From: a virus
Reading direction: 5' to 3' (one strand)
Virus record (IMG/VR): IMGVR_UViG_3300040980_000004
Span: 1 to 23,219 of that record
DNA: 23,219 bases
Below the pieces are notes generated by a model. The model searched no databases. It saw only the letters and a list, made by a program, of their open reading frames with translations, and had not been told where the DNA came from. This document shows, in pieces, positions 1,335 through 22,367 of the stretch. A program made the translations under genes and the position numbers. Within the stretch, counting starts at the first letter, position 1; each line of letters begins with the position of its first letter.

Positions 1335-1984
1335 TAGTAGTACGGGAGCAGCCGTGCGGTTCCGGCGATGGTTGTGAGTTGATCACTGGTCAGGTTAACA
1401 ACGATGGGTGCACCCCACTGGGCAAGGTTCGTCAGGTAGGAGAAGTTGGTCGGGTCGGACCAGATGACCCCGAACGTTTCCCCGAGGGTGAAAATTGTTC
1501 CGTGGTTGTTGTAATTCTTGGGCATGTCGTCGTCCTTCGGGGTGTCAGGTGTGATTGGTGTTCCGCCAGAACTTGCAGTGCTTGTAATCCCGGTGAGGGT
1601 GTATCCGCCGAACGTTCCCGCCCACCCCACGTAGGGGCGCCGGGTTTGCGCGGCACGGTGCGCGATCGTCGTAATCCCGGTGAGGCCACTGCCCGGATAG
1701 TCCGTCGCGGCGAGACGGCCGCCGCCGAGGGAAATGGTCACGTCGCCCTTGTTGTTGCCATCCGCACGGATACCGAAATACACGGGAACACCAGCGGGGG
1801 GTGACGGGTCGGGGCCGTGCTTGTCGGCCGAGCTCAGCCACGAATCGTAGGCCGTATCGCCGCCCGGGGTGAGGAAATGGTGCCCGCCGTATGCCAACCA
1901 CACGTAGTGGAGGCACTCGGATGGGGTGACAGATTTGAACCCCAGCAGCCGTTGCGCTGCACCTGTTGCGTCGATTGACGGCAT
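1334..1984 (-). CDS. Endolysin-like peptidase (NlpC/P60- or CHAP-like), copy B
   Basis: A 216-residue protein. The N-terminal domain (about 1-125) has a Cys in the motif PSECLHYVW (Cys24), a GDVTISLGGGRLAATDYP strand-turn (80 onward) and RPYVGW (about 116-121), the layout of papain-like phage lysins that cleave peptidoglycan peptides. A Ser/Thr/Gly/Pro linker (about 132-150) leads to a C-terminal domain with YNNHGTI that resembles the wall-binding end of the paralogue at 5921-6679. Where related lysins typically have G-H-(V/I) this copy has G-D-V, so the catalytic His may be missing or replaced. The start is ATG with AAGGAG 6 bases upstream. There is no signal peptide, so export would depend on the holin two genes downstream. 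Its place before two lysis-membrane genes makes this the likelier lysis enzyme of the pair. Confidence 0.75.
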   Translation of the reverse strand: MPSIDATGAAQRLLGFKSVTPSECLHYVWLAYGGHHFLTPGGDTAYDSWLSSADKHGPDPSPPAGVPVYFGIRADGNNKGDVTISLGGGRLAATDYPGSGLTGITTIAHRAAQTRRPYVGWAGTFGGYTLTGITSTASSGGTPITPDTPKDDDMPKNYNNHGTIFTLGETFGVIWSDPTNFSYLTNLAQWGAPIVVNLTSDQLTTIAGTARLLPYY

Positions 1985-2009
1985 CGTTCTCCTTCAGGTG
2001 GGAAATGCG

Positions 2010-2034
2010 AAAAGCCCCGCGGGTGACGGGGCTT
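2010..2034 (-). terminator. Intrinsic terminator between tailspike and lysin genes
   Basis: AAGCCCCG (2012-2019) and CGGGGCTT (2027-2034) are perfect inverted copies with a 7-base loop. The minus strand continues as TTTTCGC. It sits in the 69-base space between the tailspike-like gene and lysin copy B. It shares the AAAAGCCCCGC core with the hairpin at 1289-1334. Confidence 0.7.
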
Positions 2035-2053
2035 GATGGTCAAGCGGATGGGC

Positions 2054-3358
2054 CTATAGGGTGATCCAGTTCGCGGCGGGGAGTTGTTGGCTGACGAAGG
2101 TTTGCGACGCCCATTGCACTAGGGTTACCGTCGTTCCGCCATCGATCGGGTCAACGGATGTCGCTACCGTGATCGTCGTAGCTGCCACATTTTTTACGGT
2201 AATGCGTGTCCCTGGTGACCTGTATGCGACGGCGGGGAGGATGAAGGTGCCGCCTGCTGCGAGGTTGGCGATAATCACCTTTCCTTCGTCCGTGTTGTCG
2301 AAGGTTTTCGCAGCGGTCAGAACTTTTGGCCCTGGGGTGCGCACTATCCGATTCAATGTGGTGCCGGTGAGGGCTTCGACTATCGCGTCAACATTCACCC
2401 CGCCACGAATCTCATTTCCCGTGCTGCCGGTTTGCCACCTGACGCTCGGTGTTCCGGCGCTTTCATATCTGGCATGGTCGAAGAGGTTGTTGTTCCCGTA
2501 GCATTCGATGGTTGCTTCGCAGGTGCCGCCTGAGTCTTCGAGCGCGGGCTCGTGGAAAGTCCACCCGTCGATGATCTGGGAGACATTGCTGATCAGGATG
2601 TGCCGGGTCCCGACAACCGTTGCGCCTTCTGCCGAGTCAAAATTGAACGACCCGCCAAAAACTTCATTCTGGTTCGCGTAGCCCGAAATGTTGTCGGTCG
2701 TGACGACCAGGTTTCGCTTGTTGTTGAGAAGCGTCCCAAGAAAGAACTTGGAATAAGTGACCCCGCCGCCGACACCTTGTCCGTAGAACTGCAAACCGGT
2801 TTCGAAATTGCGAATCTCGCCCACGTAGACAGTGCAGTCGGAGGTGTTCGTGACCTGCACGCCGATCGAACCTGCGACCTCCGCCCAGCCGACAACCGTC
2901 TTCGCCAACGCGATCACATAGGGGGTATGGATGACCTTCCGCGAGATGCTCGCAGGCGGATTCCCGACCGTGATAGCCGTACCCGTCCCCGTGTAATTGA
3001 ACACGGCGCGGGACAAGTCAGCGTTATCGGAAAGAACAATCCCCGTCGCGATCTTGTATTGGCTTGCGTTACTAACTATCGGAACACCCGCAGCAGACGC
3101 AGCATTGACCGCCGTCTGAATCGCCGCCGCGCACTCGGTGACGCCCGTCGGATCGACACCTGCCGCAGTCTGGAGATCAATAGAGAGCGTGCCACGTTTT
3201 TCATACCGTGCATCGGCAGCCGTCTGTGTTGCGCTCGCCGCCCCCACATACCCGGCAACCGTCGAATCCGCAGCGGTCGTGTCGAGTTTCCCTAGCAGGG
3301 TGGCGTCGATGAGGTTGTGTGCTGTAACGTGTCCGAGGTCACCAATGTTGTATGTCAT
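2054..3358 (-). CDS. Tailspike-like receptor-binding protein (beta-helix)
   Basis: A 434-residue protein. The N-terminal 60 residues (ending near AADARYEKRG) resemble short attachment or linker modules of phage fibres. Residues about 70-330 have the start of a pectate-lyase-like right-handed beta-helix (an AAIQTAVNAA helix followed by many short strands with N/G/T turns such as NNNLFDHARY). The last 80 residues form a beta-rich cap with TITV and QTFVS strands. Such proteins bind or depolymerise host surface glycans. It is the last structural gene before the lysis genes. The start is ATG with GGAG upstream. It is separated from the fibre gene by an oppositely oriented insert (3423-3911). I see no certain glycosidase active-site pair, so an enzymatic role is open. 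Confidence 0.65.
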   Translation of the reverse strand: MTYNIGDLGHVTAHNLIDATLLGKLDTTAADSTVAGYVGAASATQTAADARYEKRGTLSIDLQTAAGVDPTGVTECAAAIQTAVNAASAAGVPIVSNASQYKIATGIVLSDNADLSRAVFNYTGTGTAITVGNPPASISRKVIHTPYVIALAKTVVGWAEVAGSIGVQVTNTSDCTVYVGEIRNFETGLQFYGQGVGGGVTYSKFFLGTLLNNKRNLVVTTDNISGYANQNEVFGGSFNFDSAEGATVVGTRHILISNVSQIIDGWTFHEPALEDSGGTCEATIECYGNNNLFDHARYESAGTPSVRWQTGSTGNEIRGGVNVDAIVEALTGTTLNRIVRTPGPKVLTAAKTFDNTDEGKVIIANLAAGGTFILPAVAYRSPGTRITVKNVAATTITVATSVDPIDGGTTVTLVQWASQTFVSQQLPAANWITL

Positions 3359-3387: not shown

Positions 3388-3416
3388 TTGCTAATCCGGG
3401 GTAGACCGGTTAGTAT
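3388..3416 (+). promoter_or_regulatory. Sigma70-type promoter of the moron-like gene, predicted leaderless
   Basis: TTGCTA (3388-3393) and TAGTAT (3411-3416) lie exactly 17 bases apart. Each matches four of six bases of the -35 (TTGACA) and -10 (TATAAT) consensus. The expected start, about 7 bases after the -10, falls at 3422-3424, on the ATG at 3423. No ribosome site precedes that ATG, which fits a leaderless mRNA, a form common in actinobacteria. Confidence 0.6.
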
Positions 3417-3422
3417 TTGCGT

Positions 3423-3911
3423 ATGAGCATCAAAACGTGGGTTATCATCAGTGCCGCCGCAGTCATCGCTGTAGGTGGGTCCGCTGTTGCCTACGCGCAC
3501 CCGCTGCAAACCCCGCAGGCACAACACTTCGTAATCCACGACCTGCCCGTTACCGCTGCGGACTCCCCAACGTCACCGGATGCCCTCGCCGCAGCCACCA
3601 CCACCGCTCAGACGGACGCAGCAGCAGCCCTCGCCGCACAGGAAGCCGCCGTAGCCGCACAAGCCGCAGTGGATGCAGTAGCCGCACAGGCAGCCGCTGA
3701 TGCTGCCGCGAAAGCCGCCGCAGTGAAAGCACCCGTCAAACGGAGCGCCACCACAAACACCAGCACGGCTGGCCCGGTGAAGTGCCCAGCAGGGAGTCAG
3801 GCCAACAGTGGCGATGCCGGAAACGACACCTCGTGCTTCCCCGTCATTTGCTTCACCATCGTGCTTCCGGACCCGGCCCACCCGGAGTGCGTCACCCCGT
3901 TCAAGCCGTAG
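3423..3911 (+). CDS. Exported Ala-rich protein with Cys-containing tail (moron-like)
   Basis: A 162-residue plus-strand protein from ATG 3423; a TTG two codons earlier is possible but less fitting. Residues 1-25 are a typical signal peptide (Lys4, a hydrophobic core IISAAAVIAVGG, then AYA before His26). The mature part has a short Thr/Pro segment, then about 50 residues of Ala-rich helix (repeats of AAQAAVDA type), a Lys-rich joint (KAPVKRS) and a tail with four Cys (CPAGSQ, CFPVICF, ECVTP). It resembles secreted actinobacterial proteins more than virion parts. It lies opposite to all neighbours, between the fibre gene (3' ends overlap by 11 bases) and the tailspike gene (64 bases, divergent). 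With its own promoter it looks like a moron expressed in the lysogen. A role at the cell surface, such as blocking superinfection, is inference; I recognise no family. Confidence 0.7.
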   Translation: MSIKTWVIISAAAVIAVGGSAVAYAHPLQTPQAQHFVIHDLPVTAADSPTSPDALAAATTTAQTDAAAALAAQEAAVAAQAAVDAVAAQAAADAAAKAAAVKAPVKRSATTNTSTAGPVKCPAGSQANSGDAGNDTSCFPVICFTIVLPDPAHPECVTPFKP

Positions 3912-4680
3912 GGGGCTCTAGCACCTTCAGCCGTGCGTTAAGCGCCTGGACGGTGGCAATCAATGCTGGGACCAACTGTGAGTAGTTGATTGACAGGGGC
4001 GCGCCGTTCTCGTCCAGAGGTGCGACATCGGGGCCGAACCCGGCCTCGTAGACTTCCTCTGCGATAAGGAATTGTTTCAACGGTTCGTCTTCGGCATCCC
4101 AAACGTACCGTCCCAGCATCGGTTTCAGGCTGAGTAGCGGGTCAATGTCCGAGAGCGGAATCAGGTCCTTCTTGGAATCCCGAGTTGATGCAGAGACTCC
4201 AATGGTTCCATCGTTGTTGATCCACATCGCCTGATAGCCAGTGACTACATGGTAGGCAAAAGATCCCGGGGACTTGAACGCAGAAGCCGACACCACCTGG
4301 CCGCTCGCGTTGACATTGACAACCCCGAGGTCGGTGCCCACAGTCGCTGGTCCTGTGACTGCGACAGACGCGCCGGTGATCGCACCGCCAGCAGCAATTG
4401 TTGTACCTGCGGAGAGTGCTGCGGTTGCCGTGACATTCGCTGCCGACAGGGTTCCGGTCGGCAGGGTGATCGTGCCGCCACTATCAACAACGATCGACCC
4501 GCCACCAGTGACGATGATCGAGCCGCCGTCAGTGACGGACAGGCCACCCTTGCCGACCTGCGACTGACCCAACGACTGCGCGGAATCCTGCTCCTGTGCG
4601 TTGCGTTGCACGTCACGCTGCAACCGGATTGCTTTATCCGGGTCGGGGACAGAGTTAGTGATTGAACCGGGACTAAGCAT
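3901..4680 (-). CDS. Tail fibre with S74 intramolecular chaperone domain
   Basis: A 259-residue protein. Residues 1-45 are polar; about 45-130 form Gly/Val/Thr repeats (GGSIIVTGGGSIVV and similar), a probable trimeric beta-structure. Residues about 160-255 match the peptidase S74 intramolecular chaperone: ASTRDSKKDL with Ser165 and Lys170 at the spacing of the self-cleavage site, then FLIAEEVYEAG, INYSQLVPALIATVQALNAR and a final coiled coil. This domain folds trimeric fibres and usually cuts itself off. ATG at 4680 overlaps the upstream hub gene by 8 bases, implying coupled translation. At under 260 residues it is short for a fibre and may form a stub or adaptor. Its 3' end overlaps the convergent moron-like gene by 11 bases. 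Confidence 0.8.
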   Translation of the reverse strand: MLSPGSITNSVPDPDKAIRLQRDVQRNAQEQDSAQSLGQSQVGKGGLSVTDGGSIIVTGGGSIVVDSGGTITLPTGTLSAANVTATAALSAGTTIAAGGAITGASVAVTGPATVGTDLGVVNVNASGQVVSASAFKSPGSFAYHVVTGYQAMWINNDGTIGVSASTRDSKKDLIPLSDIDPLLSLKPMLGRYVWDAEDEPLKQFLIAEEVYEAGFGPDVAPLDENGAPLSINYSQLVPALIATVQALNARLKVLEPPTA

Positions 4681-5917
4681 TGAACGCTCCCGTCGAGGAC
4701 ACAAGAATGGGGGTAATGATCGGTGTGTTGTCCAACGTCCGCTCCCACCCTGCGACACGAGCCACACCGTCCAAACCACCAGGGACCGATGGGACAGAAT
4801 CGACCCCGAACGGATTCACCAGAACAGCTCCCGACGCCCCGAACTGATCCGTGAACGTATCAATGAACAGGTCGTACGCTATTTTCGTGGTCGGGTCGGG
4901 AACAATCCCACCAAGGACATAACCGATGTCGTCACCGAGGAACCAGTCAGCCCCGAACTTCGGCGCGCCATCAACGAACACGGACATTGACAGGGCCGTA
5001 GATCCGGCGAACATGGTTGACACCGCGTTCTGCGCATACGTGGTCAACGTGGTCACATCGGAGATTGTTGTGGATGGTGTCCACCGGTACTCGACGGTGG
5101 GCATGTCCACGTCGAACTGGGTCGAATGCGGCGACTGGTTGACGGAGGTACCCTGACCGGTGGAATACGCCATGGCATCGTTCGCACCCGCACCGACCGA
5201 ATAGTCTTCGATCAGCTCGAACCCGGTCCCATATTTGGACGGGAACTCGAACGTCGCCGCAGGACCAAGCGCGCCCGCAGCAGACCCGATCCGATCCCCC
5301 ACATACGCAACAGGGGTGAGACGTTCCGGGTTCGACTGCCACTCCCACCCGGTAGTCCACTCCGCACCACCAATGACACCCATGATGTCTTGCATGGCCG
5401 AATAGACGGTTTTGTTGTCCTGATCGGCATATGTGTGATCACGGAGCGCACCGGTGCCCGCGGTCACATACTGCACCCGAACAGGGATACCCGGCAAACC
5501 ACCAGCACCCTCGAGAACGTACGAGTTGATCAGGTCCGCAATGATGTCGTTCTGACCCGTGGCCGTGTACGTTTTCCCGCGAATGTAACGGCGGTCGAAA
5601 TAGGATTCGATCGTCATCAGGTCGAGGGTGATGAAATCCTCATGCGTCCTCGTGCGCCGGTTGATCCGATACCCGATCAGTGGCGTTCCGTGCGCTGCAT
5701 CGTTCGGGTTGTCCTCCGTCAAAATGATGTGCGCCGCGTTCTTCTTCGTCGCACGCAACCAATCCGGGGGCGCATCCTTCTGGTTGATCGGCAGAGTCGC
5801 AGTGATCGACTCATACCGGCCAATGGTCTGCTTCACCGCCCCCTGCACGGCGAGAAGCGGCAGGTCAGCAAGAATCCGACCCGTCCGCGCCTCAGTTGAC
5901 AACCAAGAGAGTCCCAT
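4673..5917 (-). CDS. Tail-associated / baseplate hub protein (Tal-like minor tail protein)
   Basis: A 414-residue protein. It starts MGLSWLSTEARTGRILADLP and continues with the beta-barrel-like pattern (ITATLPINQ, GTPLIGYRI, DFITLDLMTIESYF) seen in actinophage hub proteins related to the gp27/Tal fold. The segment around TAVQ-like TVYSAMQDIMGVIGGAEWTT and a DDIGYVLGG barrel strand near the C-terminus support this. Such proteins form the trimeric cap of the tail tube below the distal tail protein and bear the fibres. It follows the lysin-like gene by only 3 bases, with no clear ribosome site, so its translation is probably coupled. The fibre gene overlaps its end by 8 bases. No peptidase domain is appended here, which fits the lysin-like activity being a separate upstream gene. 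Confidence 0.7.
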   Translation of the reverse strand: MGLSWLSTEARTGRILADLPLLAVQGAVKQTIGRYESITATLPINQKDAPPDWLRATKKNAAHIILTEDNPNDAAHGTPLIGYRINRRTRTHEDFITLDLMTIESYFDRRYIRGKTYTATGQNDIIADLINSYVLEGAGGLPGIPVRVQYVTAGTGALRDHTYADQDNKTVYSAMQDIMGVIGGAEWTTGWEWQSNPERLTPVAYVGDRIGSAAGALGPAATFEFPSKYGTGFELIEDYSVGAGANDAMAYSTGQGTSVNQSPHSTQFDVDMPTVEYRWTPSTTISDVTTLTTYAQNAVSTMFAGSTALSMSVFVDGAPKFGADWFLGDDIGYVLGGIVPDPTTKIAYDLFIDTFTDQFGASGAVLVNPFGVDSVPSVPGGLDGVARVAGWERTLDNTPIITPILVSSTGAFNA

Positions 5918-5920
5918 CGG

Positions 5921-6679
5921 TTAGAAGACGTGCCCGCGGATGGCGCACTCAATATCCCAGTTGTGCTGGGAAAGCCACACGAGACATCCCTGCACTGGCG
6001 CGTCTGTGGGGCGCGACAGCGGTGGCGGGGATGTGACCGTGGTGACCTGCTCCGGGTGGTAGGTCAGCCATGAGTCGACGGACGCCTTGTGGGTGTTGTA
6101 GTCGTCGGGGTTGCCGAAGATTTTCACCCCGCCGTCCGAGAAGCGACCGACAGTCTTCCCGTCGCCTGTATTGCCGTAGTAGAAAGCCATGTCGGAACCT
6201 CCGTAGAAAATTGGTGCGGGTGGTGCCGCGTGTGCGACCGGGGTAAGGGGTGTGCTGCTAGAACTCGCAGTGCCAGTGGTGGTGAGGTCATAGCCGCCCA
6301 TCGTTTCGGACCAACCCAAATAGGGTCGTCCGATCTGAATGCCGCGCTGGGCAAGAGTGCATATCCCGACATGCCCGTTAGGGCGGTCAGTCGCGGTGAA
6401 CGTTCCATCCCCATTAGAAATGATCACGTCACCGAGCGCGTTACCGGGCCGCGGGCCGAAAAACGCTGGCATGTCCTTGGGTACGTTGCGGTCCCCGTTG
6501 TGTCGCCTATTAGGGTCTGTGGCCTGCCATGTGGCATACGCGGACGCTGCACCACCTGAGATGTAGTGCACACGACTTTGGCTGATTGCCCGCCAAACGA
6601 ACTGGAGACAATACCCCGGCGTGTTAGTGCCGAAAGCGAGAAGACGCGCAGCCGCACCTGACACATTGATACTCGGCAT
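5921..6679 (-). CDS. Lysin-like protein embedded among tail genes, copy A
   Basis: A 252-residue paralogue of the lysin at 1334-1984. Both share MPSI..(S/T)GAA.RLL.F, Cys24 in PGYCLQFVW, GDVIISNGDG (83 onward), RPYLGW..TMGGY.LT and a TASS..TPLTP linker. Here the first GDV has Asp where related lysins have His, but a second candidate, NGHVGI (His102), occurs 18 residues later; copy B has GLTGI there. The C-terminal region (DMAFYYGNTGDG...SDGGVKIFGNPDDYN) looks like a wall- or ligand-binding domain related to that of copy B. A short extra Cys pair (GCLVW and ECAIRG) ends the protein. ATG overlaps the upstream stop by one base (TGATG) and the hub follows 3 bases later, so it should be made with the baseplate. 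This suggests a tail-borne wall-penetration enzyme or a structural adaptor, not the lysis enzyme. Base composition differs from both neighbours. Confidence 0.65.
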   Translation of the reverse strand: MPSINVSGAAARLLAFGTNTPGYCLQFVWRAISQSRVHYISGGAASAYATWQATDPNRRHNGDRNVPKDMPAFFGPRPGNALGDVIISNGDGTFTATDRPNGHVGICTLAQRGIQIGRPYLGWSETMGGYDLTTTGTASSSSTPLTPVAHAAPPAPIFYGGSDMAFYYGNTGDGKTVGRFSDGGVKIFGNPDDYNTHKASVDSWLTYHPEQVTTVTSPPPLSRPTDAPVQGCLVWLSQHNWDIECAIRGHVF

Positions 6680-16404: not shown

Positions 16405-16920
16405 CTATTTTGTGAACCGGGCCAGATCGAGTGGGCCGAACCATTTATCGCGCTTAGTGAGGTTGCACCGCGCGCAGGATGGACGGAGGTTTGCAAGCAT
16501 GTGCGGGCCTCCCCTTGAGAGAGGTTTTACGTGATCGATGTGCTCGAATGGCCCACCGCACATCCAGCATTTGCTGCCAAAATACTTGAGGCGTTCATGC
16601 CACTGGTTTGGCGAGAATTGCACGACCCCGGCCGCAAGGGCAAGCGCGCGTCGCCTGTGTTTCATCGCGCGCCGCAGCTCCGGGTTCTTCGCGGAGTATT
16701 CAGCAGTGTTGAACCGGACGCGCACCCGATTGGCCCTTTGCCAATCCGCGACCTGCGTCCGGAGTTGGTCGCGCTTCGCCAAGTACCGAGCGGCGTTGTA
16801 TTTCTTCACGCACTGCTTGCACGCGCTTTGCGTGCGCCCGGGCCTATCGGTCCGCGATCGGAAGTCCGCTAAGGGCTTCGTGTTGTTACATGACGCGCAG
16901 ATCTTGCTGTCCTTGTCCAT
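16405..16920 (-). CDS. HNH endonuclease inserted between MuF and scaffold genes
   Basis: A 171-residue protein. The N-terminal zinc-binding module has CxxC pairs at Cys8/Cys11 and Cys34/Cys37 (KICASCNNTKPLADF, SACKQCVKKYNAARY). A basic helical linker (about 50-100) follows. The HNH domain has CWMC (118-121), IDHVKPLSRGG (His130), LANLRPSC (Asn144) and CARCNLTKRDK (149-159). The metal-dependent His and all four zinc Cys are present, so it looks active. The CNNTKPLADF type is common in free-standing homing nucleases of phages. It is flanked by a hairpin upstream (16945-16958) and a strong terminator downstream, the profile of an independent mobile cassette. A packaging role is less likely because another HNH gene lies next to the terminase. 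Confidence 0.85.
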   Translation of the reverse strand: MDKDSKICASCNNTKPLADFRSRTDRPGRTQSACKQCVKKYNAARYLAKRDQLRTQVADWQRANRVRVRFNTAEYSAKNPELRRAMKHRRRALALAAGVVQFSPNQWHERLKYFGSKCWMCGGPFEHIDHVKPLSRGGPHMLANLRPSCARCNLTKRDKWFGPLDLARFTK

Positions 16921-22010: not shown

Positions 22011-22367
22011 TCAGCGCATGTTGCGATCGTTCCATCCGCCGGGCTGGTGTGCTGCTGTCTCACGCTTGTGACATGCACCACATAGCCCGCGTCCATGCAT
22101 GGGATCGTTGGCGTCCATGCCTTGGTCGATGAGGTCAGCCCTGCTCAGTGGGTAGTGGTCTGCGTCTGTGCTCTGCGCTACATCACATAGGACACAGATG
22201 GGGTCACGCTCGAGCACGCCTGGCCTGAACCGCAGCCGGTGCCCTCGTGTGTTGTATCCGCGTGTCTTGGCCCAGTGTGCTTGGTCTGCTGTCTTGCGGC
22301 ACGGTTCGCAGCGTGACTCTGTGCCTGCGTAGATGTTGGGGCAGCTTGGTACTGAACAGACCCGCAT
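22011..22367 (-). CDS. HNH endonuclease next to the terminase
   Basis: A 118-residue protein. An N-terminal zinc knuckle (Cys4, Cys9, Cys20, Cys23) is followed by RGHRLRFRPGVLERDPICVL and the HNH fold: CVLC (58-61), DADHYPLSR (Asp70-His71), NDPMHGRGLCGACHKRE (Asn87, Cys96, Cys99, His100). All metal and zinc ligands are present. In HK97 and related phages the HNH protein beside the terminase is needed for cutting at cos, and this gene lies directly upstream of the spacer and terminase. That is a better explanation than a homing element. ATG overlaps the upstream stop by one base (TGATG). Confidence 0.88.
   Translation of the reverse strand: MRVCSVPSCPNIYAGTESRCEPCRKTADQAHWAKTRGYNTRGHRLRFRPGVLERDPICVLCDVAQSTDADHYPLSRADLIDQGMDANDPMHGRGLCGACHKRETAAHQPGGWNDRNMR

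Follow-up and report, generated by a model that had tools for sequence, protein, structure and literature searches.

A gene for a small exported protein in a 23,219-bp IMG/VR contig (the window, meaning the contig at its full length) is confirmed by sequence comparison as a real, independently promoted, moron-like gene. It occupies positions 3423 to 3911 of the plus strand, encodes 162 amino acids, and is defined by its ORF call, its homologues and the purifying selection apparent in related pairs. The gene belongs to a family of phage-encoded, predicted exported proteins in Microbacteriaceae whose tips are modular and whose genes tend to lie opposite a tail-fibre gene with an S74-type C-terminus. 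This family with exchangeable tips and a tail-to-tail arrangement is new beyond a preliminary description of the same DNA, which had proposed an independently expressed, exported moron inside the late operon.

The moron-like gene and its product

The TerL protein of the window shares 97% identity with its counterparts on two metagenome contigs, and 82-83% identity with proteins from prophage-like regions of Subtercola boreus. These matches indicate that the host is very probably a member of the Microbacteriaceae and that relatives of the virus are temperate. All host genomes found for the moron family are also Microbacteriaceae. In one of the Subtercola boreus prophages (L038/L039 in record G009, ~26441 to 27846), terL is split by ~1.4 kb and query residues 361-369 occur in both halves, as might result from an intron, an intein or another mobile insertion.

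Late genes occupy the minus strand. They start with terS/terL (~21.6 kb), continue with genes for portal, MuF, capsid, tape measure and tail proteins, and finish with two CHAP-like genes, one XhlA-like gene and a holin gene. Two HNH-like ORFs, read from the sequence, also lie on this strand (16405 to 16920 and 22011 to 22367); one sits between the scaffold and MuF genes, and the second has unusual codon usage. The two CHAP-like proteins (1334 to 1984 and 5921 to 6679, minus strand) both match phrog_12298 and flank the region that contains the fibre, moron and spike-like genes.

The moron gene, with its ATG at 3423 and its TAG at 3909 to 3911, is the sole plus-strand gene between two minus-strand genes at 2054 to 3358 and 3901 to 4680. 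The preliminary description had placed it between a fibre and a tailspike, and the fibre side of that statement is the better supported. The product of the gene at 3901 to 4680 (259 aa) has a Peptidase_S74-like C-terminus that aligns to the fibre of a related locus (L078), which Pfam places in PF13884 at 1e-6, although the window fibre on its own has no significant Pfam match. Upstream of the fibre gene is a tail gene (4673 to 5917, minus strand) whose product shares 35% identity with that of an L083 tail gene across 397 aa. The spike side is less secure, as the 434-aa product of the gene at 2054 to 3358, judged spike-like by the earlier reader and best called putative, has only weak matches to PHROGs whose function is not known and has no PDB match. 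The stop of the moron gene overlaps that of the fibre gene, such that the two genes share 11 bp (3901 to 3911).

The protein begins with a predicted signal peptide (residues 1-25; 3423 to 3497, plus strand), read from the sequence as MSIKTWVIISAAAVIAVGGSAVAYA followed by HP, with an AxA cleavage site (AYA/HP). AlphaFold predicts a helix at residues 3-24 and a single, Ala-rich helix of 50 residues that would form a stalk (residues 52-101; 3576 to 3725; pLDDT ~90). Alignments of homologues define a C-terminal tip of 44 aa (3777 to 3908) that ends in FKP and carries four invariant Cys, located in the window protein at residues 121, 138, 143 and 156. AlphaFold does not predict a fold for the tip (pLDDT 55), and the window protein has no lipobox. 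Export of the protein is thus supported by sequence features, and the plus-strand gene, signal peptide, Ala-rich helix and four Cys all lie where the preliminary description had put them. Its claim of an exported product encoded opposite the late operon also stands, given the signal peptide and the position of the gene amid minus-strand late genes.

It is scarcely credible that the ORF is merely an Ala-rich artefact of the wrong strand. The moron gene does have a poor synonymous codon score (-0.02) compared with the late genes (+0.03 to +0.26), and antisense frames score equally well. Codon usage alone is uninformative about coding, and dN/dS was used instead. Differences between three pairs of relatives fall at third codon positions in 43 of 75, 49 of 69 and 74 of 151 cases, and dN/dS is ~0.08-0.31 where calculable. 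Moreover, homologues retain 52-82% tip identity across differing genome contexts, and the promoter is conserved among relatives. These patterns argue that the gene is coding and under purifying selection in the related pairs.

A family with exchangeable tips opposite the fibre gene

A search of 300 Microbacteriaceae genomes revealed two clear homologues (E values of 1.7e-19 and 3.6e-15). A scan of IMG/VR with the single protein gave no match, whereas an alignment of three homologues used as the query reached the family in viral contigs. No match to the full-length window protein was found among 50,697 deposited phages, and queries with two relatives (L076 and L093) gave the same result. Overall, the architecture of signal, stalk and tip was recognised in 18 distinct loci. 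Eleven members share the type A tip, which has ~44 residues and four invariant Cys and ends the protein with F-K/R-P, whereas their signal sequences and linkers vary, the latter being Ala-rich, Pro/Thr-rich or short. Stalk length is also variable among relatives, some of which have Pro/Thr-rich stalks. The L086 protein is the sole member with a lipobox (LSGC), which replaces the signal peptidase site and would place this protein at the membrane surface.

A query with the S74-type fibre C-terminus uncovered further convergent genes whose products have a signal sequence and a stalk but carry a different tip. This type B tip has two Cys and ends with ST-[I/V]-NG-x-P-x-CD (L093, L098, L107 and L104). 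L110, L111 and L112 were recovered in an additional scan, and in each of them the gene lies tail-to-tail with an S74-type fibre gene.

The tip profile recovers a clear type A tip in only 2 of 400 Microbacteriaceae genomes. Weak Ala-rich matches in many other Microbacteriaceae genomes (E ~1e-4 to 1e-2) were attributed to composition, because the tip profile matches only two genomes strongly. Comparison of the tip with phages and plasmids yielded only chance matches, such as gene 9 of Microbacterium phage Wyvern (E = 2). Matches to a DNA pattern for the type B tip were likewise mostly due to chance, and only those in genomes G070 and G116 were confirmed. A Micrococcales-wide search, the type B part of which had no positive control, found no members beyond one in genome G294. 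The window protein has no match in Pfam, NCBIfam or PADLOC or in a PDB profile search, and none of the libraries of proteins that were searched, PHROGs among them, contains the family. No homology to known exclusion or defence proteins was found in these libraries, and no described family of such stalk-and-tip proteins was found in the literature. The family appears to be undescribed.

In 12 phages or prophages, representing 12 of the 18 loci, the moron gene lies tail-to-tail with an S74-type fibre gene. The overlap between the two genes is exactly 11 bp in the window, L074, L076 and L077, whereas L083 and the majority of type B loci have a 4-bp overlap. Four other relatives of the fibre (L092, L099, L101 and L106) have no such gene nearby, and therefore the moron gene is optional. 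The L086 homologue is co-directional with a terL-like gene.

The tip appears to be an exchangeable module. The DNA of L083 (tip A; 5011 to 5408) and that of L111 (tip B; 5067 to 5465) are 79% identical over the promoter, signal and stalk. This similarity ends ~20 bp before the tip. Across the tip and the fibre gene the two DNAs are unrelated, and similarity resumes only at the tail genes (7496). The pair looks like a natural recombinant with its joint near the boundary between stalk and tip. Across 12 loci, however, tip type and fibre similarity were uncorrelated (permutation p = 0.18). Joint exchange of tip and fibre, as in this pair, can thus occur without the two being strictly matched.

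A leaderless promoter and prophage-end positions

The preliminary description had reported -35 and -10 boxes with 17-base spacing and an expected transcription start on the ATG, and these elements are indeed in place. A -35-like hexamer (TTGCTA, 4/6; 3388 to 3393) is followed after 17 nt by a -10 hexamer (TAGTAT; 3411 to 3416) that lies 6 nt before the ATG. The expected +1 is the A of this ATG, which would make the transcript leaderless, and no Shine-Dalgarno sequence precedes the window gene. This promoter match by itself proves nothing, as it scores 8/12, the window holds 38 equally good matches, and a stricter 9/12 scan does not list it.

The weight of the prediction comes instead from the relatives. 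Nine of the 12 fibre-adjacent members have a TANNNT hexamer 6-7 nt ahead of the start codon (exactly 6 nt in seven and exactly 7 nt in two), and -35-like hexamers precede the -10 elements of relatives by 16-17 nt. Among 8306 ATG/GTG triplets in the same sequences, TANNNT is found at 6 nt in 14 (0.17%) and at 6 or 7 nt in 35 (0.42%). The resulting binomial P of ~1e-17 is overstated, because some loci share similar upstream DNA and because two GTG starts (L098 and L104) were picked among alternatives. Considering only the nine loci that start with ATG, five have the exact 6-nt spacing. L074 carries TACCAT 8 nt before its start, and L083 and L111 have in common TAGACA-17-TTAAGT, 9 nt before the start. 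Members located away from the fibre gene (L075, L080, L078 and G072) are apparently led by Shine-Dalgarno sequences. Conservation of a leaderless promoter across the fibre-adjacent members is thus strongly supported by these comparisons and is robust despite the inflated P. In Mycobacterium tuberculosis, the centre of a TANNNT motif lies 7-12 bp upstream of the transcription start, and 26% of the genes that have a primary start site give leaderless transcripts (PMC3898074). We infer that this rule extends to Microbacteriaceae. Such conserved leaderless promoters also allow a gene that is probably expressed by prophages to be recognised from its sequence.

A promoter on the opposite strand also bears on two roles that would tie the gene to its late neighbours. 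One is an accessory function in the virion or in assembly of the adjacent fibre, as might be expected from the tight linkage and overlap of the two genes. This is very unlikely for a protein with a signal peptide or lipobox whose gene has its own promoter on the other strand, is optional, and has copies away from the fibre gene. The other is a lysis-related wall or membrane protein, either spanin-like or a holin regulator. The gene is near lysis genes, and the L074 protein weakly matches a spanin (E 0.017), a match best explained by similarity between Ala-rich coils. However, the gene lies on the strand opposite the lysis genes with its own promoter, and the hosts have no outer membrane. We regard a lysis function as highly improbable.

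Independent expression, as proposed originally, agrees with several observations. The moron gene has its own conserved promoter, it is absent from this place in relatives, and its composition is unlike that of its neighbours, both in codon usage (the scores given above) and in GC content (~65% versus 59% for the window). The comparison with related phages that had been called for found the gene in 0 of 11 terL-related records, several of which are fragments without the tail region. Universal conservation with the structural genes is not seen, as the gene is missing beside most fibre relatives. No intrinsic terminator was found after 3911 in the window; a GC-rich inverted repeat, read from the sequence, follows the L078 copy. 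Lacking a terminator of its own, the window gene resembles a moron without being a textbook example, and late transcription has to pass through it before the spike-like, CHAP and holin genes are reached.

Several copies are located at or near prophage ends. In G072, host genes are followed by tRNA-Lys, a HIRAN-domain gene and the moron gene, and then by late genes on the other strand. The HIRAN and moron genes form a pair after the integrase gene in L078, and the moron gene directly follows the integrase gene in L075 and L080. The G294 copy is at the end of a prophage-like region and adjoins host genes, and a serine recombinase gene adjoins the L107 copy. Such positions beside int, tRNA or host genes are typical of prophage-expressed genes. 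The HIRAN-domain gene directly before the moron homologue in L078 (9099 to 9800) and G072 (L070/L071) encodes a membrane segment and has a weak PADLOC match to PDC-M03B.

Proposed function and known systems

We favour, with slightly less than even confidence, a model where the protein is displayed on the surface of lysogens for superinfection exclusion in temperate Microbacteriaceae phages. Host RNA polymerase would read the gene in the lysogen from the leaderless promoter. The protein would be exported by Sec and then either secreted or retained at the membrane or within the wall. Its stalk, stiff where Ala-rich or extended where Pro-rich, could carry the small disulfide tip outwards, where it might bind a component of the cell surface or the tail of an incoming phage and so reduce infection by other phages. 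On induction, late transcription through the opposite strand should silence the gene, such that progeny are not excluded.

This model is consistent with the conserved leaderless promoter, the signal-stalk-tip architecture in 18 loci, the tail-to-tail arrangement in 12 loci, the optional nature of the gene, the L086 lipobox, and the copies at or near prophage ends (G072, L075/L080, L078 and G294). In L083/L111 the tip and the fibre gene have been replaced whereas promoter and stalk are retained, as expected of a recognition part. The absence of any known exclusion or defence homologue, the lack of a predicted tip fold, the Shine-Dalgarno-led copies, and the co-directional L086 gene argue against it, as does the unsupported match between tip and fibre (p = 0.18). 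We consider unlikely a more specific version, where fibre and surface protein form a convergent cassette, the tip is swapped with the fibre gene to exclude rivals, and the late fibre transcript silences the exclusion gene as antisense to free the progeny.

Two other roles would use the same protein differently. The signal-stalk-tip anatomy would serve equally well for lysogenic conversion that benefits the host, with the tip acting as an adhesin or binding a cell-wall polymer or some ligand from the environment. The prophage-end copies next to int or HIRAN genes occupy typical cargo positions. However, cargo for host fitness would not need a place exactly tail-to-tail with a fibre gene, as found in 12 of 18 loci, and we rate this role as less likely than exclusion. 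Alternatively, in lytic conversion, the protein might block the receptor during lytic infection, as Llp does for T5, so that progeny avoid binding to dying cells or to cell debris. Because the promoter is leaderless and of host type, it would also be active on entry, but late transcription would run antisense through the gene just as progeny appear, and copies are present in bacterial genomes as parts of prophages. This use of the protein seems unlikely.

Under the exclusion model, the protein would work most like Llp (T5) and Cor (T1-like coliphages), which are also small exported phage proteins encoded beside a receptor-binding or central tail gene, yet by sequence it is no member of those families. 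The llp gene is adjacent to and downstream of pb5 (PMC9586334), and exclusion factors have been described at a J-like hub locus in the BASEL collection paper (PMC11990801). These genes provide a coliphage precedent for a moron beside a fibre gene, a comparison that assumes receptor binding by the S74-type fibre in the 12 loci. Llp and Cor are superinfection-exclusion lipoproteins, whereas the window protein is not a lipoprotein and only one relative (L086) is. The moron protein, a proposed exclusion factor, further differs in that it has a Gram-positive host, a long stalk, and a Cys tip that can be swapped, and it has no sequence or profile similarity to Llp or Cor.

Lambda lom and HK97 gp15 are morons within tail regions, and they resemble the window gene as optional, separately expressed, exported genes inserted among late tail genes. 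The window gene differs by its opposite strand, its tail-to-tail position with the fibre gene, its leaderless start and its lack of a terminator. Exclusion roles in Gram-positive hosts have been proposed for Ltp of Streptococcus phage TP-J34 and Ltp-like gp41 of Cutibacterium phage Aquarius (PMC11480721), which similarly combine a signal peptide, a helical or disordered region and a C-terminal extracellular part. However, the moron protein has no Ltp-type domain detectable with Pfam or NCBIfam, and its family has a short Cys module of ~17-44 aa as the tip. The prophage-mediated defences of Sbash, CarolAnn and Butters (mycobacteriophages or Gordonia phages) are actinophage genes expressed by lysogens against other phages, as is proposed for the moron, and differ from the moron in genome position, in its exported product and in its lack of a PADLOC match. 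If exclusion proves true, the coliphage pattern of an exclusion gene beside a receptor-binding gene would extend to actinobacteria, and the family would offer a natural tip-swap series for finding the recognised target.

Other candidate morons are present in the window and in a relative. At the left edge of the window, a further ORF on the plus strand (24 to 356), predicted to encode a membrane segment, converges on the holin gene and is possibly another moron; the contig end is too close for a promoter reading. A terL relative (L027) carries a lone gene for an exported SGNH-hydrolase-like protein, read from the sequence (1984 to 2739, plus strand), that converges on a tail gene and is perhaps a different surface-modifying moron.
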